From Aeromicrobium sp. CnD17-E (GTDB taxonomy: Bacteria > Actinomycetota > Actinomycetes > Propionibacteriales > Nocardioidaceae), in contig NZ_JAMXRU010000023.1 of NCBI RefSeq assembly GCF_024124745.1, forward strand, positions 1-33,380: a stretch of 33,380 nucleotides of DNA, given 5' to 3'. The notes beneath the pieces were generated by a model. The model did no database searches, was not told the origin of the DNA, and worked only from the letters and a program-made list of their open reading frames with translations. The position numbers and the translations under genes are program-made. This document shows, in pieces, positions 446-33,380 of this stretch (positions are counted from its first letter, which is position 1; each line of letters begins with the position of its first letter).

Positions 446-3013
446 TCAGGCGGGGCCGACGTCGGTGACGGTCACGACCGCCTCGCCGGCCGCGTCGCTC
501 GCGTCGAGGTCGACCTCCGCGGAGATGCCCCAGTCGCGGTGACCCTCGGGGTCGTCGAACGTCTGCCGCACCCGCCAGCGTCGGCCATCCGGCCCGTGCT
601 CGGCGGTGATGTCGAGGAGCTTCGGACCCCGCGCCTCGGGCCCGGTGCCGAGGTGGTCGTACTCGGCCCGGTAGGCGGTGAGGGCCTCGCGCCACGCGTC
701 GGCGTCCCACCCGGCCTCGCCGTCGAGGTCGCCGAGCGCGTCCCAGCGGCCGAGCGCCGCGAGCTCCACCCGCCGGAACAGCGCGTTGCGCACCAGCACC
801 CGGAACGCGCGGTCGTTCGCCGTGACCGGACGGATCGCCTGCTCGCCGTCGGCCACCGCGTGCGCGCGGTCGAGGCTCTCGGGGTCGGCGGGGTTCACCA
901 ACGCCTCCCACTCGTCGAGCAGGCTCGAGTCGGTCTGGCGCACCAGCTCGCCGAGCCAGGCCGTCAGGTCGGTCAGCTCCTCGGTGCGCGCCGAGGCCGG
1001 GACGGTCCGCTCGAGCGCCTTGTACGCGTCGGACAGGTAGCGCAGCACCATGCCCTCCGACCGCGCGAGACCGTAGTCGGACACCAGCTCGGAGAACGTC
1101 AAGGCGCGCTCCGCCATGTCGCGCACGACCGACTTGGGTCGCAGCGGGTGGTCGGCCACCCACGGGTGACCCTGGCGGTAGGTCTCGTACGCCGCCTCGA
1201 GCAGGTCCTGCAGCGGCTTCGGGTGCTCGACCTCCTCGAGCAGCTCCATCCGCTCGTCGTACTCGATGCCGTCGGCCTTCATCTGCGCCACGGCCTCGCC
1301 ACGGGCCCGGTGGACCTGGGCGGCGATGATCGGACGCGGGTCCTCCAACGTCGCCTCGATGACCGACACCACGTCGAGCGCGTACTCGGGCGACTCGACG
1401 TCGAGCAGCTCGAGCGTGGCCACCGCGAACGGCGAGAGCGGCTGGTTGAGCGCGAAGTCGCGCTGCAGGTCGACGGTGAGGCGCAGCGTGCGTCCCTCGT
1501 CGTCCGGAGGGTCGGTGCCTTCTGCCACCCCGGGCCCGGCACCCCCGCCGATCCGCTCGACGACCCCGCCGGCCACCAGCGCCTCCACGATCTCGCGCAC
1601 CCGACCCTGCAGCCGCTCGACCTCGTCGGGGCGCACCACGCTCTCCTCGATGAGGTGGTCGAGCGCCGCGATGGCGTCACCCGGACGCTGCACGACGTCG
1701 AGCACCATCGCGTGGGTGATCTGCATGCGGGGCACGAGCGGTTCGGGCGTCCCGTTCACGAGCTTGTCGAACGTCGCCTCGTTCCACGACACGTGCCCCT
1801 CGGGCGCCTTCTTGCGCTGCACCTTGCGCAGCTTCTTCGGGTCGTCGCCGGCCTTCGCGACGGCCTTCGCGTTCTCGATGTCGTGCTCGGGCGCGAGCAC
1901 CACCACGTGGCCGACGGTGTCGTAGCCGGCGCGCCCGGCCCGACCCGCGATCTGGGCGAACTCCCTCACCTGCAGCTGCCGCTGGCGTCGACCGTCGTAC
2001 TTCGTCAGCCCGCTGAACAGCACCGTGCGGATCGGCACGTTGATGCCGACGCCGAGCGTGTCCGTGCCGCACACGACCTTGAGCAGACCCTGCTGCGCGA
2101 GCCGCTCGACCAGACGTCGGTAGCGGGGGAGCATGCCGGCGTGGTGCACGCCGATGCCCATGCGCACCAGGCGCGACAACGTCTTCCCGAACGCCGACGT
2201 GAAGCGGAAGCTGCCGATCGCCTCGGCGATCTCGTCGCGCTCCGCCCGCGTCGCCAGGGCGACGCTGCTGAGAGCCTGTGCCCGCTCCAGTGCCGACGCC
2301 TGGGTGAAGTGCACGATGTAGACGGGCGCCTGTCCGGTCTGCACGAGCTCGGTCACGACGTCCTGCACCGGCGACACCACGTACTCGTTCACCAGGGGAA
2401 CGGGGCGTTCGGACGACGCCACGAGCGCGGTGTCGCGACCGGTGCGGCGGGTGAGGTCGTCGCGCAACGTGGTGGTGTCGCCGAGCGTGGCTGACATGAG
2501 CAGCGCCTGCGCCCGTGGCAGCTCCACGAGCGGGACCTGCCAGGCCCACCCGCGGTCGGGGTCGGCGTAGAAGTGGAACTCGTCCATCACCACGAGGCCG
2601 ACGTCGGCGGCGGCACCCTCACGCAGCGCCAGGTTCGCCAGCACCTCGGCCGTCGCCACGACCACGGGGGCGTCGGCGTTCACGGAGGCGTCGCCCGTGA
2701 GCATGCCCACGTCGTCGGCGCCGAACACCTCGCACAGGTCGAAGAACTTCTCGCTCACCAACGCCTTGATCGGTGCCGTGTAGACGGCGCACTCGCCTCG
2801 CGCCAGTGCCCCGGCGATGGCCGCCGTCGCCACCAGGCTCTTGCCGGAGCCGGTCGGCGTGGCGAGCACGACGTTCGATCCCGACAGCAGCTCGAGGACC
2901 GCCTCCTCCTGCGCGGGGTACATGCTCATCCCGCGCGAGTCGACCCACGCCTCGACGGCGTCGAACACGTCGTCGGGGGTGGCTCCCTCGGGGACGTGGA
3001 GCGCCGGGCTCAC
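446..3013 (-). CDS. DEAD/DEAH-box RNA helicase with DUF3516 C-terminal domain
   Basis: A predicted 855-residue superfamily 2 helicase that should unwind RNA using ATP. Visible motifs: Walker A ATPTGSGKS (residues 51-59), APIKALVSEK (motif Ia), box II DEFH (144-147), SAT (174-176), and motif VI QIAGRAGRAG followed by Y. The C-terminal half is the long DUF3516 region. The start was chosen as GTG at 3011-3013, which overlaps the stop of the hemolysin III gene as GTGA; the frame stays open upstream, but the extra residues are arginine-rich shadow sequence. The product begins SPALHVPEGATPDDVFD, as expected for the family, and length is typical. Expression is probably translationally coupled to hemolysin III. 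The family is common in Actinobacteria; the RNA target is unknown. Confidence 0.9.
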   Translation of the reverse strand: MSPALHVPEGATPDDVFDAVEAWVDSRGMSMYPAQEEAVLELLSGSNVVLATPTGSGKSLVATAAIAGALARGECAVYTAPIKALVSEKFFDLCEVFGADDVGMLTGDASVNADAPVVVATAEVLANLALREGAAADVGLVVMDEFHFYADPDRGWAWQVPLVELPRAQALLMSATLGDTTTLRDDLTRRTGRDTALVASSERPVPLVNEYVVSPVQDVVTELVQTGQAPVYIVHFTQASALERAQALSSVALATRAERDEIAEAIGSFRFTSAFGKTLSRLVRMGIGVHHAGMLPRYRRLVERLAQQGLLKVVCGTDTLGVGINVPIRTVLFSGLTKYDGRRQRQLQVREFAQIAGRAGRAGYDTVGHVVVLAPEHDIENAKAVAKAGDDPKKLRKVQRKKAPEGHVSWNEATFDKLVNGTPEPLVPRMQITHAMVLDVVQRPGDAIAALDHLIEESVVRPDEVERLQGRVREIVEALVAGGVVERIGGGAGPGVAEGTDPPDDEGRTLRLTVDLQRDFALNQPLSPFAVATLELLDVESPEYALDVVSVIEATLEDPRPIIAAQVHRARGEAVAQMKADGIEYDERMELLEEVEHPKPLQDLLEAAYETYRQGHPWVADHPLRPKSVVRDMAERALTFSELVSDYGLARSEGMVLRYLSDAYKALERTVPASARTEELTDLTAWLGELVRQTDSSLLDEWEALVNPADPESLDRAHAVADGEQAIRPVTANDRAFRVLVRNALFRRVELAALGRWDALGDLDGEAGWDADAWREALTAYRAEYDHLGTGPEARGPKLLDITAEHGPDGRRWRVRQTFDDPEGHRDWGISAEVDLDASDAAGEAVVTVTDVGPA

Positions 3014-3711
3014 CGCTGCTGGTAGGCGAGCAGGCTCACGCCGATGTAGTGCACGACGAACGCGGCGATCGTGAGCGTGTGGAACACCTCGTGGAAGCCG
3101 TACCAGCGCGGGAACGGGTCGGGCCACTTGAAGCCGTAGACCAGCGCGCCCAACGTGTACAGACCGCCGCCGACGATCATGAGGACCAGCACCGCGGTCG
3201 AGGCCTGGTCGACGAACTCGCCCCAGTACAGCACCGCGGCCCAGCCGAGCAGCACGTACAGCGGCACGTAGATCCAGCGCGGCGCGCCCACCCAGAACAC
3301 GCGGAACGCGACGCCGAGCAGCGCCCCGCCCCACACGAGCGACAGCATGATCACCGCCTGCCGGGTGTCGAGCAGCAGCAGGCTGAAGGGCGTGTACGAG
3401 CCGGCGATGAGCAGGAAGATGTTCGCGTGGTCGATGCGCTTCCACACGATCCGGGCCTCGTCGGACCAGGTGCGCGTGTGGTAGAGCGCCGAGCACCCGA
3501 ACAGCAGCAGCGCGCTCACCATGAAGATCGCGACGCCGGCGCGCACGAGGGTGTCGTCGGCGATCACCATCATCACGAGGAAGGAGATGAAGGCGAGGGG
3601 TGCGGTTCCCGCGTGGAGCCAGCCGCGCAGCTTCGGCTTGATCTCCTCCAGGTTCTCCCGGATGCGGTCGGACACCTCGTCGGTCGTGGCTTCGAGATCG
3701 GTCCGTGGCAT
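3010..3711 (-). CDS. Hemolysin III / PAQR-family membrane protein
   Basis: A 233-residue integral membrane protein with about seven hydrophobic segments after a soluble N-terminus of roughly 35 residues. The hallmark PAQR/HlyIII motifs are present: SALYH in the second segment region, RIDHANIFLLIAGSYTPF in the middle, and FHEVFHTLTIAAF near the C-terminus. The conserved His and Asp residues are the putative metal ligands of this hydrolase-like fold. Despite the name, a haemolytic role is not implied. The ATG start is supported by a TAGTCT hexamer exactly 7 nt upstream. It lies divergent to the prenyl synthase and is coupled to the helicase downstream. The divergent pairing with a short-chain cis-prenyl synthase resembles Rv1085c/Rv1086. 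Confidence 0.92.
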   Translation of the reverse strand: MPRTDLEATTDEVSDRIRENLEEIKPKLRGWLHAGTAPLAFISFLVMMVIADDTLVRAGVAIFMVSALLLFGCSALYHTRTWSDEARIVWKRIDHANIFLLIAGSYTPFSLLLLDTRQAVIMLSLVWGGALLGVAFRVFWVGAPRWIYVPLYVLLGWAAVLYWGEFVDQASTAVLVLMIVGGGLYTLGALVYGFKWPDPFPRWYGFHEVFHTLTIAAFVVHYIGVSLLAYQQR

Positions 3712-4694: not shown

Positions 4695-5260
4695 AGTGGT
4701 CTCGATACGCGGCACGGCGCTCCTTCGTCGCGCGTGCCGATACTCGACCAGCGGAACGTCTCGCTGGTCGAGTGCCTCCACGAGCGCCAGCGAGGGGAGG
4801 TGTATCGAGACCACTCTGGGCTGTCGCTGGGGGTCGGTTCGCGCTGGGCCGTTGCCGGGTGGTCTCGATATGCGCCCACGGCGCTCGTCCCTCGCGCGTG
4901 GCCGCTACTCGACCAGCGGAACGGCTCGCTGGTCGAGTGCCTCCACGAGCGCCAGCGAGGGGAGGTGTATCGAGACCACTCCGGGCTGTCGCTGGGAGCC
5001 GGCTCGCGCTGGGCCGTTGCCGGGTGGTCTCGATATGCGCCCACGGCGCTCGTCCCTCGCGCGTGGCCGCTACTCGACCAGCGGAATGTCTCGCTGGTCG
5101 AGTGCCTCCACGAGCGCCAGCGAGGGGAGGTGTATCGAGACCACTCCGGGCTGTCGCTGGGGGTTGGTTCGCGCTGATCCGTTGCCGGGTGGTCTCGATG
5201 CGCAGCACGGCGCTCCTTCGTCGCGCGTGCCGCTACTCGACCAGCGGAGTGTCTCGCTCG
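4695..5260. repeat. Tandem array of palindromic repeats, about 165-bp period, 3.5 copies
   Basis: Each unit opens with agtggtctcgata or a variant and closes with tatcgagaccact. In unit 1 the 14-nt ends at 4695-4708 and 4802-4815 are perfect reverse complements. Inside each unit is a second palindrome, actcgaccagcg / cgctggtcgagt (4742-4753 with 4762-4773 in unit 1), then cgagcgccagcgagggg. Unit starts (gtggtctcga) are at 4696, 4859, 5024 and 5189, giving spacings of 163, 165 and 165 bp. The fourth unit is cut after the central palindrome. Linkers between units (for example 4816-4857) are also conserved. The array is non-coding; long open frames through it are artefacts of GC content. A related copy lies at 12668-12977. 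Confidence 0.88.
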
Positions 5261-11317: not shown

Positions 11318-12660
11318 CCGCGCGCCTCGGGGCCGTCGCGCGCTCCGTCCCGTTCCTCTGGGCCCTGCTGTGCACGGCCGCCTACACGACGCTGTCGCTG
11401 CTGCGGTTCCGCCGCTTCGACCCCACCTCCTGGGACAACGCGATCTTCGAGCAGGCGATCCGCGGCTACGCGCACCTCGGGCTGCCGATCGTCGACATCA
11501 AGGGTCCGGGCTTCAACATCCTCGGCGACCACTTCTCGCCGATCACGGCGCTCGTGGCGCCGTTCTACCGGCTGTGGCCGTCGGCGCAGACCCTGCTCGT
11601 CGCGCAGGCTGTCCTGATCGGGCTGTCGGTGCTGGTGGTCTCCCGGCTCGCGGTGCGGCACGCCGGCCCGTGGGCGGGGGCGATGCTCTCCGTCGCCTAC
11701 GGCATCTCCTTCGGCATCGCCTCGGCCGTGCAGTCGGACTTCCACGAGGTCGCGTTCGGTGCCCCGCTGCTCGCGCTGGCCGGCTCGGCGTACCTCGACC
11801 GCCGGTGGAACGCCGTCGTCGGCTGGTCGTTGCCGCTCCTGCTCGTCAAGGAGGACATGGGCGCCACGGTGCTCGTCATCGGGCTCGTGCTGATGCTCGC
11901 CGGCGAGCGTCGCCGCGGCACCCTGCTCGCGGCGGCGGGCGTGGTCGGTGCGGCGCTCGTCGTGCTCGTCGTGCTGCCGTCGGTGAACCCCGGCGGCGTC
12001 TACGACTACGCGTCCAGCGTCGGGGGAGACCGCGGCGTGGTCGCGACCCTCTTCGACGAGCCGGGGCGCAAGGCCCTCACGGTGCTGGTGACGCTCGCGG
12101 TGACGGGTCTCGCGGCGCTCGGCTCGCCCTGGATCCTGCTCGTCCTGCCGACGTTCGCCTGGCGCTTCGTCGGCGACAACCCGTACTACTGGGGCACCGA
12201 CTGGCACTACTCGCTGCTCCTCATGCCGATCGTGTTCGTCGCGGCCGTCGACACCATGCGGCGCTACCCGCCCGTGCGGTGGACGGCGGTGCCCGCTCTC
12301 GTCGTGTCGCTCGCCCTGCTCCCGTCGACGCCGCTGTGGGCGCTGACCCAGGGGGAGACGTACGAGGTGCCCGACCGGGCAGCGGTCGCGCAGCGTGTGG
12401 TCGACATGGTGCCCGAGGGCGCGTCGGTCGTGACCGACATCGGCGTCATCACCCACCTCGCCACGGACCACGACGTGTACTGGCTCGGCACGGTCGGCAC
12501 CGCCCCGCTCCCCGAGGGCGACCCGGACTACGTCCTCCTCGACCAGTGGGCCGGCGTCGGCTCGCCCCCGGACGCCCGCACCTGGGCCGAGCAGACCTTC
12601 GGCGGCACGTGGGTGACGGTCTGGGACGCCGACGGCTACCAGCTCGCCCGCCGCGCCTGA
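11314..12660 (+). CDS. DUF2079 polytopic membrane protein
   Basis: A 448-residue membrane protein with about ten hydrophobic segments. Family-like motifs are visible: DPTSWDNAIFEQAIRGYAHLG near residue 35-55, GDHFSPITALVAPFYRL, SDFHEVAFGAPLLALA, a charged KEDMG loop, and NPYYWGTDWHYSLLLMP. A C-terminal soluble segment of about 110 residues (from QGETYEVPDRAAV) resembles the periplasmic part of GT-C-like proteins. DUF2079 proteins are suspected to be GT-C-type glycosyltransferases, but no reaction is proven. It starts at GTG 11314, overlapping the ATPase stop as GTGA, so it is the fifth gene of the transporter operon and is probably functionally linked to it. Stop TGA is at 12658-12660. Confidence 0.85.
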   Translation: MTARLGAVARSVPFLWALLCTAAYTTLSLLRFRRFDPTSWDNAIFEQAIRGYAHLGLPIVDIKGPGFNILGDHFSPITALVAPFYRLWPSAQTLLVAQAVLIGLSVLVVSRLAVRHAGPWAGAMLSVAYGISFGIASAVQSDFHEVAFGAPLLALAGSAYLDRRWNAVVGWSLPLLLVKEDMGATVLVIGLVLMLAGERRRGTLLAAAGVVGAALVVLVVLPSVNPGGVYDYASSVGGDRGVVATLFDEPGRKALTVLVTLAVTGLAALGSPWILLVLPTFAWRFVGDNPYYWGTDWHYSLLLMPIVFVAAVDTMRRYPPVRWTAVPALVVSLALLPSTPLWALTQGETYEVPDRAAVAQRVVDMVPEGASVVTDIGVITHLATDHDVYWLGTVGTAPLPEGDPDYVLLDQWAGVGSPPDARTWAEQTFGGTWVTVWDADGYQLARRA

Positions 12661-12667
12661 GCGCGGC

Positions 12668-12977
12668 ACCGCTGGTCGAGTAGGCCGACCGGCGACGAAG
12701 GAGCTCGGTCGGGCGTATCGAGACCACTCTGGGTCGTCGCTGGGGGTTGGTCCGCGCTGAGCCGTTGCCGGGTGGTCTCGATACGTCAGGACGTCGCAAG
12801 CTCGTCCTGACTACTCGACCAGCGGGAGGTTTCGCTGGACGAGTGCCTCCACGAGCGCCAGCGAGGGGAGGTGCTGGAGCCGTCGCGGCTACGCCCCCAC
12901 TGCGACGGCTCCATCGCAGCCGCGGCGTTCGTTCCTCACGCGCGGCGCCTACTCGACCGGCGGGAACCCTTCGCTGG
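12668..12977. repeat. Second locus of the palindromic repeat family, rearranged
   Basis: This 300-bp gap between the DUF2079 gene and fumC is filled with pieces of the family seen at 4695. There is gctggtcgagta at 12670, gtatcgagaccact at 12715-12728, a conserved linker, gtggtctcgatac at 12772-12784, ctactcgaccagcggg at 12810, and gcctccacgagcgccagcgaggg at 12844. The first half of the central unit contains its own hairpin (gtcaggacg / cgtcctgac, about 12785-12810). A further hairpin with gagccgtcg / cgacggctc follows. The last piece, ctactcgaccggcggg with tcgctggtca, runs into the fumC stop codon. No gene is seen. Confidence 0.82.
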
Positions 12978-16876: not shown

Positions 16877-16940
16877 AGTCCCCACGATTCGGAACACCAT
16901 CGCCCGTTCCGGGCGGGAGAACGGGCGACGACGTGCCGAA
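16877..16940. repeat. Short palindromic element, family B, copy 1
   Basis: Imperfect 22-bp inverted repeat, arms 16888-16909 and 16919-16940, sharing the core catcgcccgttc / gaacgggcga. It begins with agtccccacgattcgg, which is identical at copy 2 (17325). It lies between the spermidine-synthase-like gene and the VOC gene. Confidence 0.75.
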
Positions 16941-16957
16941 ACGTCGCGGGAGAGGCA

Positions 16958-16963
16958 TAGCGT
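16958..16963 (+). promoter_or_regulatory. -10 box of a probable leaderless promoter for the VOC gene
   Basis: TAGCGT followed by 6 nt and the ATG at 16970. The -35 region would fall in the right arm of palindrome copy 1. Confidence 0.5.
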
Positions 16964-16969
16964 CGGGTC

Positions 16970-17326
16970 ATGGCACACACCCACCACGGCATCGACTACA
17001 TCGAGATCCCGGCACCCGACCTCGCCGCCGCGCAGCAGTTCTACGGCGGCGCCTTCGGCTGGCGCTTCACCGACTACGGACCGGACTACGTCGGCATCCA
17101 GCGTGTCGAGGGGGAGGGCGAGGCGGGCGGCCTCGACCCCACCGGCACGCCGTCGACCACCGGGCCCCTCGTCCAGCTCTGGTCCGCCGACCTCGAGGCC
17201 ACGCGCGACGCCGTCGTCGAGGCCGGGGGCACGGTCGTCGACGACGTGTTCGCGTTCCCCGGCGGCCGCCGCTTCCACTTCACCGACCCCGCGGGCAATC
17301 GGCTCGGCGTCTGGAGCGACGCCTAG
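16970..17326 (+). CDS. VOC-family (glyoxalase/bleomycin-resistance-like) protein
   Basis: A 118-residue single-domain vicinal oxygen chelate protein. Visible parts: IDYIEIPAPDLAAAQQFYGGAFGW at the N-terminus (first beta-alpha-beta module), and VFAFPGGRRFHFTDPAGNRLGVW at the C-terminus (the FTDPAGN motif of the second module). Such proteins bind a metal between two modules and act as lyases, dioxygenases or binding proteins; the substrate cannot be told. The gene stands alone on the plus strand and is bracketed by two same-orientation copies of a short palindrome, the second beginning at the stop codon. This suggests a cassette-like insertion or a recent repeat spread. Confidence 0.88.
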   Translation: MAHTHHGIDYIEIPAPDLAAAQQFYGGAFGWRFTDYGPDYVGIQRVEGEGEAGGLDPTGTPSTTGPLVQLWSADLEATRDAVVEAGGTVVDDVFAFPGGRRFHFTDPAGNRLGVWSDA

Positions 17327-17388
17327 TCCCCACGATTCGGGACGTCATCGCCCGTTTCTTCGCCCGGAACGGGCGATGACGTTCCGAA
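17325..17388. repeat. Short palindromic element, family B, copy 2
   Basis: Arms 17336-17356 and 17368-17388 pair with a single mismatch (acgtcatcgcccgtt against aacgggcgatgacgt). It starts within the VOC stop codon and lies 18 nt before the end of the convergent hydrolase gene (17406), so it could also serve as a bidirectional terminator. Confidence 0.8.
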
Positions 17389-17405
17389 ACGGGGGGAAGG
17401 CGTGG

Positions 17406-25885: not shown

Positions 25886-25891
25886 GGAGGT

Positions 25892-25982
25892 GGGAGATTC
25901 CCAGGTCGCCCTGGGAATCTCCCGCCGGGCACGGTTTCCTCAGCGAAGCACGGAATGCTCTCCGTGCTCCGTTGAGATTCCC
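25892..25982. promoter_or_regulatory. Inverted-repeat element over the xseA promoter region
   Basis: A perfect 14-bp palindrome (gggagattcccagg, tcgc loop, 25910-25923) starts 6 bp upstream of the xseA -10 and spans the -35 position. A second hairpin follows (agcacgga / tccgtgct, about 25948-25969). A further gagattccc at 25974-25982 pairs with gggaatctc at 25913-25921, so the whole element can fold into a larger structure. It may be an operator or an interspersed palindrome. Confidence 0.5.
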
Positions 25983-26050
25983 GTGCCTCGACCGGGCGGT
26001 CGGCGGCTGGCGGGGTCGCGCCGACGGGCTCGCGGTCTGTCGGCGGTCGG

Positions 26051-26062: not shown

Positions 26063-27052
26063 ATGACGACCCACGTGGACCTCGGCATGCCCCCCGTCGG
26101 CGGGAGCGTGCTCCTCGCCGACCCGCGCGGCTACTGCGCCGGCGTCGACCGCGCGGTCATCACCGTCGAGAAGGCGCTCGACCTCTACGGGGCGCCGGTG
26201 TACGTCCGCAAGCAGATCGTGCACAACAAGCACGTCGTCAACACGCTGGCCGAGCGCGGAGCCGTGTTCGTCGAGGAGCTCGACGAGGTGCCCGAGGGTG
26301 CGACGGTCGTGTTCTCCGCCCACGGTGTCTCGCCGATGGTGCACGAGCAGGCCGCCGAGCGTGGCCTGAAGACGATCGACGCCACGTGCCCACTCGTCAC
26401 CAAGGTCCACCACGAGGCCCGCCGTTTCGCCGCCGAGGACTACCGCATCCTGCTCATCGGACACGCGGGCCACGAGGAGGTCGAGGGCACTGCGGGCGAG
26501 GCGCCCGAGCACATCACCCTCGTCGAGAGCCCGGACGACGTCGACGCCCTCGAGTTCCCCGAGGGCACCCGGCTGTCGTGGCTCTCGCAGACCACCCTGA
26601 GCGTCGACGAGACGATGGAGACCGTCCGCCGGCTGCGCGAGAAGTTCCCGCAGCTGGAGGACCCGCCGTCCGACGACATCTGCTACGCCACCCAGAACCG
26701 TCAGGTCGCGGTCAAGGAGATCGCGAAGGACGCCGACCTGGTCATCGTCGTCGGTTCCTCGAACTCCTCGAACTCGGTGCGCCTGGTCGAGGTCGCGCTC
26801 GAGGCGGGCGCGTCGGCGTCCTACCGCATCGACGACGTCAGCGAGCTCCAGGAGGAGTGGCTCGACGGCGTCGAGACCGTCGGCGTGACGTCCGGTGCCT
26901 CGGTGCCCGACGACCTCGTCCAGGACGTCCTCACCTACCTCGCCGAGCACGGCCACCCCGACGCCGCCGCCGTGCGCACCGCCGACGAGACCCTCACCTT
27001 CGCCCTCCCGCCCGAGCTGCGCCGCGACATGAAGGCTGCCGGCCAGGTCTGA
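26063..27052 (+). CDS. ispH: 4-hydroxy-3-methylbut-2-enyl diphosphate reductase
   Basis: A 329-residue iron-sulfur enzyme (LytB) making isopentenyl and dimethylallyl diphosphate in the last step of the MEP pathway. The three cluster cysteines are Cys25 ([10 protein letters not shown]), Cys109 ([11 protein letters not shown]) and Cys207 ([10 protein letters not shown]). [16 protein letters not shown] and VGSSNSSNS also fit. It is divergent from xseA and in the position of Rv1110. It feeds the isoprenoid precursors used by the prenyl synthase at 3756. Confidence 0.96.
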
Positions 27053-27139
27053 GAAGGGCAGACGGCGCGATCTGCGAGAGGCGCGAAGCAGGCGAACCTG
27101 CCGGCGCGTCCCGCAAGTGGGTGTGACGTGCAACTTTCC

Positions 27140-27168
27140 TTGAGGAGTTCTGGAAGTCTCGCTAGTTT
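27140..27168 (+). promoter_or_regulatory. Promoter of the DUF5819/HTTM cluster
   Basis: TTGAGG (27140-27145), a 17-bp spacer and TAGTTT (27163-27168). Transcription would start near 27175, leaving a leader of about 42 nt that ends in gggggagaaag before the ATG at 27217. The surrounding bases are visibly richer in A and T than elsewhere, and the leader is of the conventional type rather than leaderless. Confidence 0.55.
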
Positions 27169-27216
27169 CTCTCCCCAGCGGGTCCTGGAGTGGGGCCCTG
27201 GACGAGGGGGAGAAAG

Positions 27217-27555
27217 ATGAAGAAGAGGATCGTCGTGACGGCCGCTGCTGCCGCCACTGTCGTAGCGGGCGCCACCTTCGGGTCGGCAGCCACCGCCGAC
27301 TCCGAGGTGATCGCGTCGCCCTACGTGGCCGCAGTCGAGGCCCAGCCGGACGACGTCGTGGAGGCTCGGCCGCAGGCCATCCCTGGCATCGTCGCCGCGG
27401 CAACCGCCGCTGGTCGGGGCTTTACCGCGGCGCAGGCTCCGCGCTACGCCGGCGAGGTGGCGCGCGCTGCCAGCTTCATCCAGGGAGTCCTGGGCGGAAG
27501 CAGCTACGCCAGGACGTCGGCGCCGGGCACGTCCGTCGACGTCATCTTCGACTGA
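27217..27555 (+). CDS. Small secreted protein, possible SDP-like peptide precursor
   Basis: A 112-residue protein, unknown family. The ATG at 27217 follows GGGGGAGAAAG and begins a clear Sec signal peptide: MKKR, an Ala/Val core and an ATA cleavage motif after residue 27. An upstream in-frame start at 27190 is less likely. The mature 85 residues contain no Cys, no further transmembrane helix and four Glu. A mildly hydrophobic, Ala/Gly-rich segment (IPGIVAAATAAGRG to ASFIQGVLGG, residues 55-94) is in the middle. It is followed after 8 nt by a DUF5819 gene and an HTTM gene. By analogy to SdpC, processed with SdpA and SdpB, it may be the product that these act on. This is inference from context; no sequence similarity to SdpC is claimed. 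Confidence 0.75.
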   Translation: MKKRIVVTAAAAATVVAGATFGSAATADSEVIASPYVAAVEAQPDDVVEARPQAIPGIVAAATAAGRGFTAAQAPRYAGEVARAASFIQGVLGGSSYARTSAPGTSVDVIFD

Positions 27556-27563
27556 CGTCTCGC

Positions 27564-28244
27564 GTGGACGTCCAGGAGGACGGCGCGGCCCCGTTGACGG
27601 CGCGATCGCGCCTGACGCGGGGCCTCGCGCTCGCTACGGTCGTCGTGGCGGGCTTCGTGTACTTCGCAAGCGCCGTCCTGACGACTGCGCCCATCACCCC
27701 CCTCACACTCGTGCACGGTGAGCGCGCGAACCAGGTGCTGAGTCCATATGTCTCGCAGAACTGGCAGCTGTTCGCGCCCGACCCGATCAGCGAGGACCGC
27801 GGCATCGCCGCACAAGTGCGGTGCGCCGACGGAGCCGAGTCACCCTTCGTCGACGTCACGACCCCGACGGTGGAGGCGGTGCACCGTAGCCGCTTCTTCC
27901 CATCCCGGATGTCGCGTGTGGTCAGCAACGGCATCATGCACGTCTTCCTGCAGGACCCTTTCCTCCTGCGGTTCCGCGAGGACGCACCCGACAGCGACGC
28001 TCCGGAAGCGCTGCCACGTGCCGAGCAGCTCTCGCCGCAGGAGCGCGAGAGCCGTGCGCGGGGCGAGCGGACTCTGCACCGCTTCGCCGCATGGGCATTG
28101 GCCGACCGCTGTGCCGAGGCCGGCGAAGTTTCGCAGGTCCGCCTGAGGTACGTGATCCACCGCTTTCCGCGGTGGTCCGAGCGGGACCGGTGGAGTGAGA
28201 CAGGCGACGTCGACGTACTGGAGACCGCATGGGCGCGCCTCTGA
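27564..28244 (+). CDS. DUF5819-family (SdpA-like) membrane-anchored protein
   Basis: A 226-residue protein with one transmembrane segment (about residues 20-42, GLALATVVVAGFVYFASAVL) and an outside domain. The family mark is SQNWQLFAPDPISEDRG, comparable to the W-x-hydrophobic-F-x-x-x-P pattern of SdpA. Two Cys (RCADG and DRCAE) could form a disulfide. The start is GTG 27564, 8 nt after the small secreted gene. Its end overlaps the HTTM gene by 16 nt. DUF5819 genes are usually found next to HTTM genes. In Bacillus, SdpA and SdpB are needed to turn pro-SdpC into toxin; a similar role here is inferred. Confidence 0.8.
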   Translation: MDVQEDGAAPLTARSRLTRGLALATVVVAGFVYFASAVLTTAPITPLTLVHGERANQVLSPYVSQNWQLFAPDPISEDRGIAAQVRCADGAESPFVDVTTPTVEAVHRSRFFPSRMSRVVSNGIMHVFLQDPFLLRFREDAPDSDAPEALPRAEQLSPQERESRARGERTLHRFAAWALADRCAEAGEVSQVRLRYVIHRFPRWSERDRWSETGDVDVLETAWARL

Positions 28245-29212
28245 TCTCGGCCACGGATCGCATCCTGCAGTCGGTCGGTGACCGGCCCCGGGCGCTCGTG
28301 GGGTTGGCCGCCGCTCGGATCGGCGTGGGCGTCGCCCAGCTGTCGCTCTTCCTGTCCGACTACGGAGACCGGCGCGTGTTGTTCGGCGCGGAGTCGTTCT
28401 ACCCGCGTGAGGACGTCGGTCACGCAGGCGGCTTCAACCTGTTCGTAGCGCTCGGTGACGGGTCGGTCGCCTTCGAGCTCCTCTATCACCTCGGGATCGT
28501 GCTCTGCGTAGCGATGGTCGTCGGTGTCGGCGGTCGGCTCGTGATCGCTGGAGCGTGGGCGGTCTGTTGGACGATGTGGGGGGCCAATCCGTTCCTCATC
28601 GACGGCGGCGACAACCTGTCGATGATCGTCATGCCGTTGCTGGCCGTCAGCCGGTGCACGGACCGGCTGTCCGTGCGCAGCAACTGGCCGCCGATCGCGC
28701 GGGTCCGGCGGGTCGGTCACACGTGGTGGGCGACCATGCTCAGCAACGCCGCGGCTCTGGCGATCGCACTGCAGATCTGTCTCGTCTACCTGATGAGCGG
28801 GCTGTACAAGGCCCAGGGTGACATGTGGATCGACGGCACGGCGCTCTACTACGTGATGCGTACGCCGGAGTACTTCCACCCGGCCCTGTCGCCGCTGGTG
28901 CTTGAGCATGACCACGTCGTCGTCCTCGGCACCTACGGAGCCATGCTGGCGCTCATCGGGTTCCCGTTCCTGGTCGTCTCCAGGTCGGTGCGGCCGTGGG
29001 CCGTCTTGATGATGGTGACGTTCCACCTCTCGATCGCGCTGTTCATGGGTCTGACGAGCTTTGCGCTGGTGATGATCGCCTGCGACACGATCTTCGTGTC
29101 CTCCCACCTGGAACGGTTCGTGGCCTGGCTGCGCGGCCGGGGCGGAGCTGGGGCGGACGACGGGCCGCGGTCCGAGGACGGGCGGCCATCGGCTGTGGAG
29201 ATCGACGCATGA
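28229..29212 (+). CDS. HTTM-domain membrane protein (SdpB-like, gamma-carboxylase fold)
   Basis: A 327-residue polytopic protein with the HTTM domain shared by vitamin K-dependent gamma-carboxylases and SdpB. Motifs: RIGVGVAQLSLFLSDYGDRR near the N-terminus, NPFLIDGGDNLSMI, LVYLMSGLYKAQGDMWIDG around residues 185-203, then TALYYVMRTPEYFHP and TFHLSIALFMGLTSFALVMIACD. In the GLYKAQGDMW motif, Lys194 lines up with a lysine of the GIKKLDSDW motif of the human carboxylase. The C-terminal soluble carboxylase part is absent, so this is an HTTM-only protein as in SdpB. Start overlaps DUF5819; stop overlaps the next gene. Confidence 0.85.
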   Translation: MGAPLISATDRILQSVGDRPRALVGLAAARIGVGVAQLSLFLSDYGDRRVLFGAESFYPREDVGHAGGFNLFVALGDGSVAFELLYHLGIVLCVAMVVGVGGRLVIAGAWAVCWTMWGANPFLIDGGDNLSMIVMPLLAVSRCTDRLSVRSNWPPIARVRRVGHTWWATMLSNAAALAIALQICLVYLMSGLYKAQGDMWIDGTALYYVMRTPEYFHPALSPLVLEHDHVVVLGTYGAMLALIGFPFLVVSRSVRPWAVLMMVTFHLSIALFMGLTSFALVMIACDTIFVSSHLERFVAWLRGRGGAGADDGPRSEDGRPSAVEIDA

Positions 29213-30456
29213 GGACGTCGCTGGTGCTGGCGGTCGCCACCGTCCTGGTGCTTGCGGGCTGCTCCGAGAGCCCGGACCCGGCACCGCGCCCTGGCGCTAG
29301 CGCGTCGAGTGCAGCGAGGTGGCTCGTCGACGGTCTCAACGGCGAGGGGCTCTCCACTGCCGACCGGCGGTACTTCTCCAGTGCGTTGTCCGACGGGGCT
29401 CAGTGGCCGGAGGTGACCCGTGCGGTCCGGGCCGTCGTCGACGACGGTCCGTGGGAGGTCGTCGACGAGGAGACGAAGGGACCGGTGGCTCGCCGAGTGC
29501 TGCGATCGAGCGCCGGCCGGACGCTCCTGCTACACCTCGAGCGAGGCGAAGGAGGAGCGATCGACGTGCTCTGGTTCGGTCCAGCGGTCGACCGCAGTGT
29601 CGCCGCGGCCGACGTGCAGGACGTCCGTCGTGTGTCTTCCACGCTGCCCGTGCGGTGGTCCGCAGCCGCGCTGCGGGTCGGCGAGGACCGGGCTGAGGTC
29701 GTCGGCGCGTCGCCGGAGGACCTGTTGCCCATGGCCTCGGTGGCCAAGGTGGTGGTCGCAGCGGGCGTGGCTCGCGGGATCGACGATGGTCGCCTGTCGC
29801 CGCGACAGGCGGTGCGCGTGGGAGCCCGCGACCAGTCGGCCCCCGTCACTGCCCGCACGCCTGCCGCCGGTGAGCGCCGCACGATCGACGAACTGGTCGC
29901 CCTGATGCTGCAGACCAGCGACAACACCGCGACGGACGCCCTGCTCCGCGTCGTCGGTCCGGACGGCGTGACGGCGGCCTGGGAGGAAGCCACCGGGCGC
30001 CGCTGGTCCGGCCCGTTCCTCTCGACGAAGCAGGTGTTGCAGGCGGGATGGGGCGCCGAACCCCTGCCCGCTGGTGCGGATCTCGGGGACGCGGAGACTC
30101 GTGAGGTGCTGAGGCGGGTCGCCGCGGCGACGGTCGACGTCGATCCGCGCGCCGTGACGACGCCCCGATGGCAGGACGGCCTGGACTGGACGGCGCGGTC
30201 CACCGACATCGCTGCCCTGGGCGCATGGTTGCTGGAGCATCGCGGGTTGTTCGGCCCGCAGGCCCGCGCCGTCCTAGACGACGACTTCACGAAGCCGGGC
30301 GGGGCGCCCGGCGTCGTCGCGGAGCTGCGGTGGACGTTCGACGACAGCGGTGCCACCGTCGCGGTGGCCCAGTTCGCCGGTCGCACGACCAGCGACGTCG
30401 GCGACGCGGAGGGGCTCCTCATGCTCGCCGATCGGACCCTGGAGGTGGAGCGATGA
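29209..30456 (+). CDS. Class A beta-lactamase-like serine hydrolase lipoprotein
   Basis: A 415-residue lipoprotein (lipobox LVLAGC, Cys18). An N-terminal domain of about 150 residues precedes a beta-lactamase/DD-peptidase fold. SxxK is Ser177-Val-Ala-Lys180 and SDN is Ser237-Asp-Asn239. The third motif is KPG (Lys362-Pro-Gly, TKPGGAPGV), where KTG is usual. A class A lactamase-like acyl-enzyme site is therefore nearly complete. ATG start overlaps the HTTM stop (ATGA). Substrate is unknown; peptidoglycan or a peptide are equally possible. Whether it confers lactam resistance cannot be said. Confidence 0.85.
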   Translation: MRTSLVLAVATVLVLAGCSESPDPAPRPGASASSAARWLVDGLNGEGLSTADRRYFSSALSDGAQWPEVTRAVRAVVDDGPWEVVDEETKGPVARRVLRSSAGRTLLLHLERGEGGAIDVLWFGPAVDRSVAAADVQDVRRVSSTLPVRWSAAALRVGEDRAEVVGASPEDLLPMASVAKVVVAAGVARGIDDGRLSPRQAVRVGARDQSAPVTARTPAAGERRTIDELVALMLQTSDNTATDALLRVVGPDGVTAAWEEATGRRWSGPFLSTKQVLQAGWGAEPLPAGADLGDAETREVLRRVAAATVDVDPRAVTTPRWQDGLDWTARSTDIAALGAWLLEHRGLFGPQARAVLDDDFTKPGGAPGVVAELRWTFDDSGATVAVAQFAGRTTSDVGDAEGLLMLADRTLEVER

Positions 30457-31349
30457 GCCTCCGGACGAGCGTCGCGGCCCTTCTGCTGACCAAGGACGGG
30501 GAGCGGCGCGAAGGCTCGGGCTGGCACCGGCCGGGGCAGCCGGTCCGGTGGGGCTCGGTGTCGAAGATCCTGACGGCCGGGCTGGCCCACGCGATGGTCG
30601 AGCGCGGCACGTGGAGGTGGGACACGACGGTCGAGGAGGTGCTCGACTCGACGTCGCCGATCACCGTGGCCGAGCTCGTCCGGCACCGGTCGGGGCTGCC
30701 GCGCACTGCCCCAGGTCAGCGCCGCGAGCTCCTCGATCCTTACCGGCGGTGGACGCGAGAGCGCTTCGACCACGACGTGCTGCCCGAGCTCGACGCGCTC
30801 GTCGACCAGCACCGTCGGGTGGTGGGCGAGTACTCCAACCTCGGCTACGCGGTGCTGACGCGGATGCTGGAGGAGGTCGGCGGGCCGTGGATCGAGCAGG
30901 TGCGGAGCACGCTCGTCGAGCCGGCCGGTCTCGACCCGAGCGCGTTCGACATCGCCCGGAGGACCGGCGAGCGTGACGACGTCGTCGAGGCGCTGAGCAT
31001 CTGGGGCCGCCCCCTCGACGAGTGGGTCATCGGCGACGGCCCGTTCGTCGGGGCGGCGGGTCTCGTGGCCACCCTCGACGACATGGCGGCGCTCGTGCGG
31101 GCCTCGGCCGACGGCGGCCTGCTCGATCCCTCTCGGCAGCCCCACGCCTGGCGGGTGGACGACGGCCTGGCCGTCCACCACGGCGCTCTCATGCGCTGCG
31201 GGGCGGTGGTGGCGTGGCGTCCCGCCACAGGGATCGTGGGGGTGGCCAGCGCCGTCGGCGGACGGGCGGCCTTCGCCGATCGACGGGCCGCGGACGTGCT
31301 GGACCAGCTGGCGTCCGCAGCGGCGCCTGAGGAGGGGGAGATGTCATGA
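30453..31349 (+). CDS. Class C-type serine hydrolase (beta-lactamase family)
   Basis: A 298-residue beta-lactamase/esterase-fold protein without a signal peptide. The nucleophile motif is SVSK (Ser35 to Lys38) and the second motif is YSN (Tyr127 to Asn129, in EYSNLGYAVL). A possible third motif is HHG in VHHGALMRCG. RHRSGLPR matches the conserved loop after the first helix. The start is ATG 30453 overlapping the previous stop (ATGA). A shortened family member compared with typical 350-400 residues. Probably cytoplasmic, so unlike the preceding lipoprotein. Function unknown. Confidence 0.85.
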   Translation: MSLRTSVAALLLTKDGERREGSGWHRPGQPVRWGSVSKILTAGLAHAMVERGTWRWDTTVEEVLDSTSPITVAELVRHRSGLPRTAPGQRRELLDPYRRWTRERFDHDVLPELDALVDQHRRVVGEYSNLGYAVLTRMLEEVGGPWIEQVRSTLVEPAGLDPSAFDIARRTGERDDVVEALSIWGRPLDEWVIGDGPFVGAAGLVATLDDMAALVRASADGGLLDPSRQPHAWRVDDGLAVHHGALMRCGAVVAWRPATGIVGVASAVGGRAAFADRRAADVLDQLASAAAPEEGEMS

Positions 31350-31810
31350 GCGAGCACCGCATGGCCTGGCTGGTGACCACCGACGACGCGGTGGCGGTCG
31401 GCGACCCGTGGCGCGATCACCTGATGCTCACGACCGAGGGGCTCGTGCACCGACGGCTCGACGTCGATGCCGAGGCGATGGTCGACGAGGCGACGTGGTC
31501 GTGGGCCGACGTCACCGACCTGCTCGTGTCCGCGCCGACGAGTCGCACGTCGAAGCCCGGACTCTGGGCCTTTCTCAGGGCTGCGGCAGCCGAGGCCACA
31601 GGCTGGGGCAGCACCCTGGCGTCGGTCGAGGTGGCGGCACGCATCGTCCATGCCGACGGCACCGATGCGCTGCTGCTCCTCGACGGCCACACCGGGAGCG
31701 GGTACCCCGCCGAGGACCAGGAGGAGGCGCGCACCATGCTGCGGCGCGTGCTGGAGGACCCCGGCACCATCCCGCAGATTCGGAACCTCATCGCCCATTC
31801 TGACTCGTGA
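31346..31810 (+). CDS. Hypothetical protein, last gene of the cluster
   Basis: A 154-residue soluble protein that I do not recognise. It opens with MAWLVTTDDAVAVGDPWRDHLMLTTEGLVHRR and contains two short acidic-tryptophan segments (EATWSWADVTDLLVS), suggesting a PH-like or small beta-rich domain, but this is only an impression. The ATG overlaps the previous stop. The last residues (QIRNLIAHSDS) are encoded by the left arm and loop of a palindromic element, so the natural C-terminus may have been replaced when the element arrived. Confidence 0.65.
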   Translation: MSEHRMAWLVTTDDAVAVGDPWRDHLMLTTEGLVHRRLDVDAEAMVDEATWSWADVTDLLVSAPTSRTSKPGLWAFLRAAAAEATGWGSTLASVEVAARIVHADGTDALLLLDGHTGSGYPAEDQEEARTMLRRVLEDPGTIPQIRNLIAHSDS

Positions 31811-31833
31811 GATGGGCGATGAGGTTCCAGAAC
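31776..31833. repeat. Short palindromic element, family B, copy 3; likely bidirectional terminator
   Basis: Arms 31782-31798 and 31812-31828 form a perfect 17-bp stem (ggaacctcatcgcccat) with a 13-nt loop. The left part agattcggaac-tcatcgccc matches copies 1 and 2 near the VOC gene. It lies between two convergent genes; the stop codon of the plus-strand gene is in the loop and the minus-strand stop is at 31838. Confidence 0.8.
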
Positions 31834-31837
31834 GTGG

Positions 31838-33380
31838 CTATCGGCGGTCGGGTCGCACCACCAGGGCGGTGCCGCCACCGCGACGTTGCGGCTCGGCGAC
31901 GGCGGTGAGGCGGCCGCGGCGGTCCTGCTCGATCGCGGCCACCGCACCGATCTCCGCCTGCGACGTGAACGCGTCTCCCGACGGCGTCAGCTGCTGGCCG
32001 AAGGGGGCGAGCAGGCCGCCGTACTGCTCGATGAAGGCCGGCTCGGCCGGCGTGACGGCTGCGTTGCGCTGCGAGGCGCGCGGCGCGGCGACCGCCTGCG
32101 GCAGCGTCATGCCGAGGTCGATGCGGTTGAGCAGCACCTGCAGGACCGTCGTGATGATGGTGGCGCCACCGGGCGAGCCGACCACGTACTTCACCCGGCC
32201 GCGGTCGAGCACGATCGTCGGCGACATCGACGAGCGGGGTCGCTTGCCCGGCTCGATCCGGTTCGGGTCCTTCGGGTCGTAGACGGCCGTGAAGTCGGTG
32301 AGCTCGTTGTTGAGCAGGAACCCGCGCCCGGGCACCGTGATCGCCGAGCCACCGGTCTGCTCGATGGTGAGTGTGTAGGAGGCGGCGTTGCCCCAGCGGT
32401 CGACGACCGAGAGGTGGGTCGTGGAGATGTTCTCGGTGTCCGGCTTCTCCTCCGCGGCCCGGGTTTTGCAGGGGCCGCCGTCGAGCGCGCCCGCCGCCAC
32501 CGGCCGCTGCGACGCCTGCGTGGGGTCGATGGTGCAGGCTCGTGAGTCGGCGAAGCGCTGGCTGAGCAGGGTGCGGACGGGGACGTCGGGGACGTCGCCC
32601 ACGTACGCCGCGCGGTCGGCGAACGCCCGTGCCGACGCCTCGAGGAACAGGTGCAGCGACGAGCCGAGGCGGGCGCCCCCGCCCAGGCGGTAGCCCTCGA
32701 GGATGTTCAGCGCCTCGCCGACCGCGATGCCGCCCGACGACGACGGAGCCATGCCGTACACGTCGAGACCGCGGTACCGCGCGCGGGTCGGTGCCTGGCG
32801 GTCGACCCGGTAGGTGGCGAGGTCACGCTCGGTCATGGAGCCGGGCGGGGCCGGCAGGTCGGACGCGGGGTCCTTCGGCGGCGCCTGGACCGTGCGCGCG
32901 ACGTCGCGGGCGACGGACCCGGTGTAGAAGGCGCGCGGCCCCTTCGCCGCGATCAGCGACAGCGTGCGGGCCAGCTCTGGGTTGCGGAAGGTGCTGCCGA
33001 CCTGGGGCGCGTCGCCGCCGGGCAGGAACAGCCGGGCGGTGTCGGGGAAGGCCGCGAACCTGTCCTTGTTGTCGAGCGTCTGGCTGCGGAACGTCCGGTC
33101 GACCGTGAACCCGCGCTCGGCGAGCTTGATGGACGGGGCGAGGGCCTGGCGCAGCGACCAGCGACCGTGGTCGCGCAGGGCCGCCTCCCAGGTGGCCGGC
33201 GTCCCCGGGACGCCGACCGCGACGCCGGACGAGACGAGCTCGGGCGTGAACCGGTACGGCTTGCCGGTGGACGGGTCGATGAACGCGTCGCGCGTGATGC
33301 CGGCGGGTGCGGTCTCGCGACCGTCGATGGTGCTGACCTTCCCGCGCTTCGCGTCGTAGTAGACGAAGTAGCCGCCCCCG
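31838..33380 (-). CDS. ggt: Gamma-glutamyltranspeptidase, 5' end outside the window
   Basis: The last 514 residues of a gamma-glutamyltranspeptidase, read from 33379 with no break to TAG at 31838. It cleaves glutathione and other gamma-glutamyl compounds outside the cytoplasm after self-processing. The mature small subunit starts at TTHLSVVD (first Thr codon 32420-32422), the autocatalytic nucleophile; downstream are NNELTDF, RSSMSPTIV and GSPGGATI, the substrate-binding region. Upstream, GGGYFVYYDA, DGRETAP and GVPGT are the large-subunit motifs. The N-terminal signal lies beyond the right edge. A later Met at 32836 is internal, not the start. Confidence 0.95.
   Translation of the reverse strand, partial: GGGYFVYYDAKRGKVSTIDGRETAPAGITRDAFIDPSTGKPYRFTPELVSSGVAVGVPGTPATWEAALRDHGRWSLRQALAPSIKLAERGFTVDRTFRSQTLDNKDRFAAFPDTARLFLPGGDAPQVGSTFRNPELARTLSLIAAKGPRAFYTGSVARDVARTVQAPPKDPASDLPAPPGSMTERDLATYRVDRQAPTRARYRGLDVYGMAPSSSGGIAVGEALNILEGYRLGGGARLGSSLHLFLEASARAFADRAAYVGDVPDVPVRTLLSQRFADSRACTIDPTQASQRPVAAGALDGGPCKTRAAEEKPDTENISTTHLSVVDRWGNAASYTLTIEQTGGSAITVPGRGFLLNNELTDFTAVYDPKDPNRIEPGKRPRSSMSPTIVLDRGRVKYVVGSPGGATIITTVLQVLLNRIDLGMTLPQAVAAPRASQRNAAVTPAEPAFIEQYGGLLAPFGQQLTPSGDAFTSQAEIGAVAAIEQDRRGRLTAVAEPQRRGGGTALVVRPDRR

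Follow-up and report, generated by a model that had tools for sequence, protein, structure and literature searches.

The 33,380-nucleotide stretch of the Aeromicrobium sp. CnD17-E genome (3.57 Mb) considered here (contig NZ_JAMXRU010000023.1, positions 1 to 33,380; hereafter, the window) contains six plus strand genes, termed g1 to g6, that lie between ispH and the oppositely oriented ggt. With a probability of about 0.7, these genes form a secreted-peptide operon belonging to an undescribed family, in which a C-terminally tagged peptide, probably a bacteriocin, would be matured by a DUF5819 protein together with an HTTM protein. The peptide family looks undescribed because the same C-terminal tail was encountered next to these two membrane proteins in bacteria that are only distant relatives.

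Examination of the start of the cluster revealed g1 (27217..27555) to encode a small secreted precursor of 112 residues without cysteine, g2 (27564..28244) to encode a DUF5819 protein (PF19136, E-value 1.3e-19; 71.8 bits, cut-off 27.1) presumed to be the counterpart of SdpA, and g3 (28229..29212) to encode an HTTM protein (PF05090; 41.3 bits, cut-off 27.7) presumed to act as a maturase. The product of g1 is very probably the substrate of the g2 and g3 proteins. A gap of 8 nucleotides (nt) separates g1 from g2, g2 and g3 overlap by 16 nt, and g3-g4, g4-g5 and g5-g6 each overlap by 4 nt. When recomputed, coordinates, frames and joints were all as given in the initial annotation, as were the length and Cys-free nature of g1, while the domains assigned there to g2, g3, g4 and g5 each scored above the Pfam cut-off.

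To determine how widely this arrangement recurs, related loci were collected. Since a search of genome contigs with g2 alone returned no relative, HTTM patterns and an HTTM alignment were used instead. The resulting 60 loci (L116-L175) hence favour this HTTM branch, are not independent of one another and come mostly from Streptomyces. For DUF5819, as for the class C hydrolase, g6, FAD oxidoreductase and DCC1-like protein discussed below, any open frame within about 6 kb on each side was counted. DUF5819 was found at 58 of the 60 loci. A small precursor with a signal peptide accompanied the pair at 52 of the 60, with 47 intact and two split precursors (L137 and L139, broken over frames or by a stop codon) preceding DUF5819 and three, all in myxobacterial loci, following HTTM. 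The expected recurrence of a small secreted gene with the pair was thus borne out and, because the set recurs in other genomes, its clustering goes beyond chance.

The two membrane protein families are themselves more widely distributed. DUF5819 was detected in 76 of 394 genomes of the class, 73 of these over the cut-off, and in four places in the Aeromicrobium sp. CnD17-E genome, where HTTM likewise occurs in four. Among 197 genomes of the family, the best match of the window HTTM protein, itself excluded, was 34% identical, and the window pair is evidently no close orthologue of other pairs in its family. Its nearest relatives were instead found in Streptomyces (DUF5819 E-values of 2e-38 to 5e-43 at five loci; HTTM E-values of about 1e-71 at the three loci where HTTM was called) and Salinibacterium. 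The three further DUF5819-HTTM pairs of the host genome lie in L009 (G000:C22:23000-38000) and L010 (G000:C161:1-7000), the two pairs on C22 lying on either side of a large protein whose C-terminus is LPxTG-like; in many genomes of the genus, copies occur in pairs separated by a few kb. No paper found by literature search named DUF5819 and, among the papers listed for HTTM, one on human vitamin K gamma-carboxylase (GGCX; PMC5343777) was related, the others using the letters HTTM in other senses.

A common feature of the precursors is their C-terminus. The g1 product comprises a signal-like start, a variable linker, a conserved proline (Pro 52), an Ala/Gly-rich and only modestly hydrophobic core and the tail SVDVIFD. 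In an alignment of 35 precursors (A4), Met 1, Phe 111 and Asp 112 were the sole invariant positions and Pro 52 and Gly 93 were almost invariant; the cores were highly diverse and the ends were kept. In the window, the codons for the Phe-Asp tag, residues 111-112, occupy 27547..27552. A tail in which Phe-Asp is followed by at most one residue (FD or FDx) terminated 46 of the 47 intact precursors, the starts of which were chosen by eye; the initial precursor count had relied on a looser tail pattern. By contrast, such a tail was seen in only 6 of the 427 other called genes of the 60 loci, and three of these six proved to be the myxobacterial precursors that follow HTTM, unknown beforehand and first revealed by this count. 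These are near-identical proteins of 78-79 residues that end in SDATFDR and lie 3' of HTTM (L160:5952-6191, L161:7063-7302 and L163:7074-7310).

At five Streptomyces loci, a small open reading frame (ORF) with a signal-like start was found 5' of DUF5819, mostly missed by a simple gene caller and bearing tails such as SVETVFDK, ATAFDR and TVFDR. Tails resembling the DVIFD of the window were also identified in Paenibacillus (DVIFDK, DIVFDH), Virgibacillus (VVFDQ), Salsuginibacillus (FVFDN), Microbacterium (VTAFD), Corallococcus (ATFDR) and a Chloroflexi metagenome-assembled genome (LLFDR), such that FD-type tails span these and Streptomyces and Salinibacterium. The Salinibacterium precursor (L116:4895-5242) additionally has ARGFTAA(Q/K)AP and SF(I/L)QG in common with the core of g1. 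Copies of the system are also carried on plasmids, as exemplified by a Virgibacillus plasmid (L222) in which two nearly identical tandem precursors (2003-2308 and 2556-2861) with FDL tails precede a single DUF5819-HTTM pair, the HTTM protein being fused to a DCC1-like domain. The precursors, of about 80-130 residues, are covered by no Pfam or NCBIfam family, each listed match touching one to three members; g1 had no Pfam match at all and one precursor matched a phage virion family (E 6e-5).

The relation between the tail and the HTTM protein was next considered in a tree of 116 HTTM sequences, which contains duplicates (L123/L109, L166/L106 and L170/L093) and from which six HTTM pieces shorter than 180 residues were left out. 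A tip was labelled as having a precursor if, no more than 2.6 kb away and on the same strand, there was an ORF of 60-180 residues with a signal-like start and an FD or FDx ending; labels were assigned manually to the window and to the two loci with split precursors (L137, L139). With midpoint rooting, all 57 tips with an FD-tailed precursor fell into one clade of 63 tips (support 0.991), which also holds L168, a locus mislabelled through another ORF. Among the remaining 53 tips, which include pairs from Aeromicrobium, Streptomyces and a family presumed to be Mycobacteriaceae, none has such a precursor nearby. When four SdpB sequences served as outgroup, the clade comprised 61 tips (support 0.91), 56 of them labelled, and excluded two labelled tips, both from copies of one Microbacterium locus. 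The Salinibacterium HTTM protein is sister to that of the window (support 0.919). DUF5819-HTTM pairs outside the clade thus contain the same two families in the same order as those within, yet differ in lacking the FD-tailed precursor and, in several cases judged by eye, in having LPxTG-type proteins as neighbours. A clustering of neighbouring genes mixes overlapping frames and served only as a lead.

As the initial annotation had described the cluster as SDP-like, it was compared to that system. In Bacillus subtilis, SdpC (203 residues) is converted to the 42-residue peptide SDP, a maturation that requires SdpA and SdpB, while SdpI offers protection (PMC6818787), and weak sdpABC homologues have been reported in Brevibacterium (PMC5719810). 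The likeness to SDP systems (sdpABC/sdpRI, yitPOM and actinobacterial sdpCAB) lies in the presence of a precursor, a small membrane protein and an HTTM/SdpB protein in one operon, in the order shared by the actinobacterial sdpCAB genes (loci L178, L228 and L229). Against the SdpB model TIGR04033, g3 scored 79.6 bits (E 2.8e-22), below the cut-off of 178.4, and four HTTM relatives scored 57.7-67.4 bits; the HTTM protein is, by profile, a distant relative of SdpB. SdpA (PF17418) was detected in none of 14 genomes of related loci nor in the host genome, with 2 of 346 genomes of the phylum being positive. Likewise, no SdpC model was among the ten NCBIfam families touched by any of the 35 precursors (E-values up to 0.06), g1 of the window touching none.

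Still, g2 presents a hydrophobic N-terminal stretch and the motif QNWxLFAPDP, at a place corresponding to which four of five actinobacterial SdpA sequences have PQGWxFFT. When DUF5819 was matched by hhalign to five SdpA sequences, the E-value was 0.0035 at a probability of 9.4%, with a score of 25.5 as compared to a maximum of 23.6 in 60 column shuffles. Remote kinship between DUF5819 and SdpA is therefore only suggested; a sequence search of DUF5819 against solved structures gave no match. Further differences concern the precursor, with SdpC being about 220 residues long and four SdpC sequences (two annotated, two assigned by position) not ending in FD, and the additional genes, namely the class C hydrolase and g6. 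No SdpI-type Pfam match was found among the six proteins, the rest of the genome not having been searched for SdpI. Membership in the SDP family was accordingly rejected, given that the SdpA and SdpC families were unmatched and SdpB fell below its cut-off; what stands of the initial claim is the distant relation of g3 to SdpB and the sdpCAB gene order, and a working likeness to SDP is plausible.

A second point of comparison is the corynaridin linaridin cluster, which is reported to combine HTTM with an alpha/beta hydrolase (crdG, crdE) and to contain no leader protease gene (PMC9927463). Linaridin clusters thus resemble the present one in combining HTTM and a hydrolase with a ribosomal peptide without such a protease gene, and differ in that the hydrolase here is of the beta-lactamase fold. 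Linaridin precursors and core enzymes belong to families other than those found here.

The remaining three genes of the cluster differ in how well they are conserved. g4 (29209..30456) encodes a lipoprotein-like protein with a class A beta-lactamase-type domain (Beta-lactamase2, PF13354; 64.3 bits, cut-off 22), in which LAGC, SVAK, SDN and KPG motifs were recognized by eye, although its score against the class A beta-lactamase model NF033103 (57.1 bits) was below the cut-off of 200. g5 (30453..31349) encodes a serine hydrolase of the class C beta-lactamase fold (PF00144, E 5.8e-28; 98.5 bits, cut-off 27) with SVSK, YSN and HHG motifs. g6 (31346..31810) encodes a small protein with nothing over the Pfam cut-off and one weak match (E 0.095). 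A class C hydrolase was found, by coordinates 3' of HTTM, at 41 of the 60 loci. Of these 41 proteins, simple patterns recovered SxxK in 40, YSN in all and HxG in 29, with all three motifs being present in g5; eight of the proteins are longer and more distantly related (E 1e-16 to 1e-24). g6 belongs to an unnamed family of 13 ORFs that follow HTTM at 12 Streptomyces loci, the only further match of the profile being g6 itself (E 2.1e-5), and so recurs with the pair at 12 of the 60 loci. By contrast, g4 was found beside the pair at no other locus examined. Distant g4 matches exist in 55 of 295 other genomes of the class at E<=0.001 (best, 29% identical) and, weakly, in four of 48 other genomes of the genus; in the seven best-matching genomes that also have DUF5819, the two lie in different places, as judged by eye. 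The initial suggestion that two beta-lactamase-fold hydrolases form a unit with the pair thus holds for g5 but not for g4, which is, on this distribution, a local addition rather than a conserved partner.

Comparison with other members of the genus offered insight into the origin of the cluster. ispH was found in 47 of 49 genomes, and the best 30 ispH loci, that of the window (26063-27052) included, were aligned to the window. In 18 of the 30 (L194, L197-L206, L208, L211, L213, L216-L218 and L220), ispH is followed within 200 nt by ggt with no trace of the cluster; at L212 and L219, ggt lies within about 400 nt of ispH with repeats between them, and at seven loci no ggt was present in the 1.5 kb available. 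The two nearest sister genomes (G019 and G086; loci L192 and L193) present ispH, g5, g6 and the end of ggt, without g1-g4. In the upstream stretch, identity to the window is 97% for G019 and 94% for G086. Over the first about 107 nt of g5, however, the window and G019 are only 66-67% identical, as compared to 85-89% between G019 and G086, whereas farther along the window and G019 are 89-100% identical and G019 and G086 58-90%. Because the sisters keep only g5-g6, 18 of 30 ispH loci run into ggt and the window g5 is a mosaic, it is most likely that g1-g4 and the 5' end of g5 were imported by recombination beside or across a g5-g6 that was already in place. The left joint of this insertion would lie in the ispH-g1 intergenic stretch (27053..27216) and the right joint, as placed by the shift in identity, near 30560, with 30453..30559 of g5 being of apparently foreign origin.

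A phage origin of HTTM was also considered and set aside, since no match at E<=1e-5 was found in 50,697 phage records. Elsewhere in the window, positions 4762-5144, 12401-12432 and 12833-12873 match ispH neighbourhoods of some members of the genus and are perhaps dispersed repeats, while the short elements at 16879-17397 and 25889-25988, some of which are inverted copies, likewise have matches close to ispH in sister genomes.

At its 3' end, the cluster faces ggt (gamma-glutamyltransferase; 31838 onward, opposite strand), convergent with g6. Between the two, the perfect 17-bp inverted repeat of the initial annotation was recovered (31782..31828; arms 31782-31798 and 31812-31828), with a folding energy of -36.5 kcal/mol (z -7.1 relative to 200 shuffles) and, by eye, paired changes that preserve the stem in G086. 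This repeat is likely a terminator, even if it has no T run and was absent from the output of a terminator scan. The promoter said to precede g1, presumably within the ispH-g1 intergenic stretch, was not confirmed, as a sigma-70 consensus scan of 27040-31860 found none, although such a scan tells little for an actinobacterium. Third-position G+C was 0.81-0.90 in five called ORFs of the cluster and at least 0.92 in most other called genes of the window, as counted with a simple caller that made two cluster ORFs too long and missed g1.

Assuming the main reading to be correct, the g1 product would be exported via its signal peptide, after which the g2 and g3 proteins would recognize the C-terminal Phe-Asp tag in the membrane and finish the peptide by cleavage and/or chemical change, as their co-occurrence with the tag suggests. 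The released Ala/Gly-rich and partly amphipathic portion would most likely be bacteriocin-like and strike competitors, a product of this type being somewhat favoured. The block comprising g1-g4 and the 5' end of g5 would have entered between ispH and ggt, as the sister genomes suggest. In the two nearest sister genomes, g1-g4 are missing and g5-g6 persist, as would be expected of an orphan protection gene. On the basis of this pattern, the role that seems most likely for g5, a serine hydrolase without a signal peptide, would be protection of the producer together with g6, a tentative proposal put somewhat below even odds.

How g3 might act was addressed by profile comparison. The HTTM profile (A6) matched PDB chains of human GGCX (best E 3.8e-6), with the match being limited to the membrane domain (chain 83-297 of 696), pointing to homology of this domain, as does the PF05090 match. 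Lys 194 of the window protein (codon 28808..28810) aligned with chain Lys 187, corresponding to Lys 218 (an offset of 31 between chains), the base that deprotonates vitamin K hydroquinone (PMC12589487). This position is K in 36 of 39 sequences and Q in three. Trp 200, present in 39 of 39, aligned, as counted by eye, with Trp 223, which lines the quinone ring. In human GGCX, the Glu side chain is held by Asn 159 and His 160 (PMC12589487); the aligned positions, counted in the same manner, are the Gly-Gly of DGGDN in 39 of 39. The quinone chemistry may hence be related, but the substrate pocket differs, and the substrate proposed here is a short bacterial peptide. In addition, an FAD oxidoreductase (Amino_oxidase and NAD_binding_8 domains) was found at 20 of the 60 loci and a DCC1-like protein, so named from PLSDB annotation, at another 20, in eight of which it shares one open frame with HTTM. 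No locus has both, an outcome with a chance of 3e-5 if the two were independent, a figure that is too small since the loci are related.

Together with the invariance of the acidic tag in the 35 aligned precursors, these observations would fit HTTM being an active quinone-dependent enzyme that modifies the acidic C-terminus of the peptide, with the DCC1-like protein or FAD oxidoreductase keeping the quinone reduced. Yet three of the 39 HTTM proteins have Q in place of the lysine at loci that still have precursors, the residues of the Glu pocket are replaced in all, and the window itself holds neither redox partner. Quinone-type chemistry by HTTM is accordingly viewed as doubtful, and the same holds for the scheme as a whole. 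Its broadest form, namely a new class of ribosomal peptides spanning several phyla in which HTTM directs menaquinol chemistry at the Phe-Asp tag of a substrate presented by DUF5819 and the quinone is recycled by redox partners that can replace one another, is unlikely.

Other explanations concern the nature of the product. It is similarly unlikely that the peptide is matured in the same manner but serves as a signalling or developmental peptide sensed by kin: the preponderance of Streptomyces among the loci, the modest hydrophobicity of the g1 core and the lack of SdpI among the six proteins would suit such a role, yet the diversity of the cores between conserved ends, the plasmid copies and the import by recombination fit competition better, and no receptor or two-component match was found in the six proteins. 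Less likely still, DUF5819 and HTTM would anchor or release a small surface protein at the membrane by way of a C-terminal sorting signal, as with LPxTG. The LPxTG-type neighbours of other pairs and a hydrophobic stretch near the end of a few precursors (L148, L149 and L170) point this way; most precursors, however, lack a C-terminal membrane helix and basic tail, as judged by eye, and the precursors track a separate HTTM clade. Finally, g4 is not conserved and close joints prove little by themselves, such that a chance operon of unrelated genes was considered, but counterparts of g1, g2, g3, g5 and g6 occur together in other genera, which contradicts this explanation for these five genes, if not for g4, and renders it highly improbable.

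Several observations also weigh against a tagged bacteriocin matured by DUF5819 and HTTM. No precursor satisfying the labelling rules was found at 8 of the 59 HTTM places in the 60 loci, and the LPxTG-type neighbours seen elsewhere imply that bacteriocins are not the general partner of the pair. The small upstream ORF of L168, from an Armatimonadetes metagenome-assembled genome, ends in IFDVPQ, neither FD nor FDx, and on a Macrococcus plasmid (L225), a small gene (2796-3155) with a signal-like start that precedes DUF5819-HTTM ends in FAR, so the tag is not universal. Twelve loci with a precursor have no class C gene, including all eight Bacillota loci with a precursor. g5 of the window has no signal-like start and is thus unlikely to act on the peptide outside the cell, and g5-g6 without the other genes could be an older remnant that has nothing to do with immunity.

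A secreted, Phe-Asp-tagged peptide matured by DUF5819 and HTTM nonetheless remains the preferred explanation. It proposes a likely substrate for DUF5819 and for one branch of HTTM, and offers a marker, namely a small signal-peptide ORF ending in FD beside a DUF5819-HTTM pair, by which peptides now annotated as hypothetical, for example on Streptomyces plasmids, may be recognized. With such a substrate, the chemistry of the bacterial relatives of SdpB and vitamin K carboxylase would become directly testable on a short peptide.

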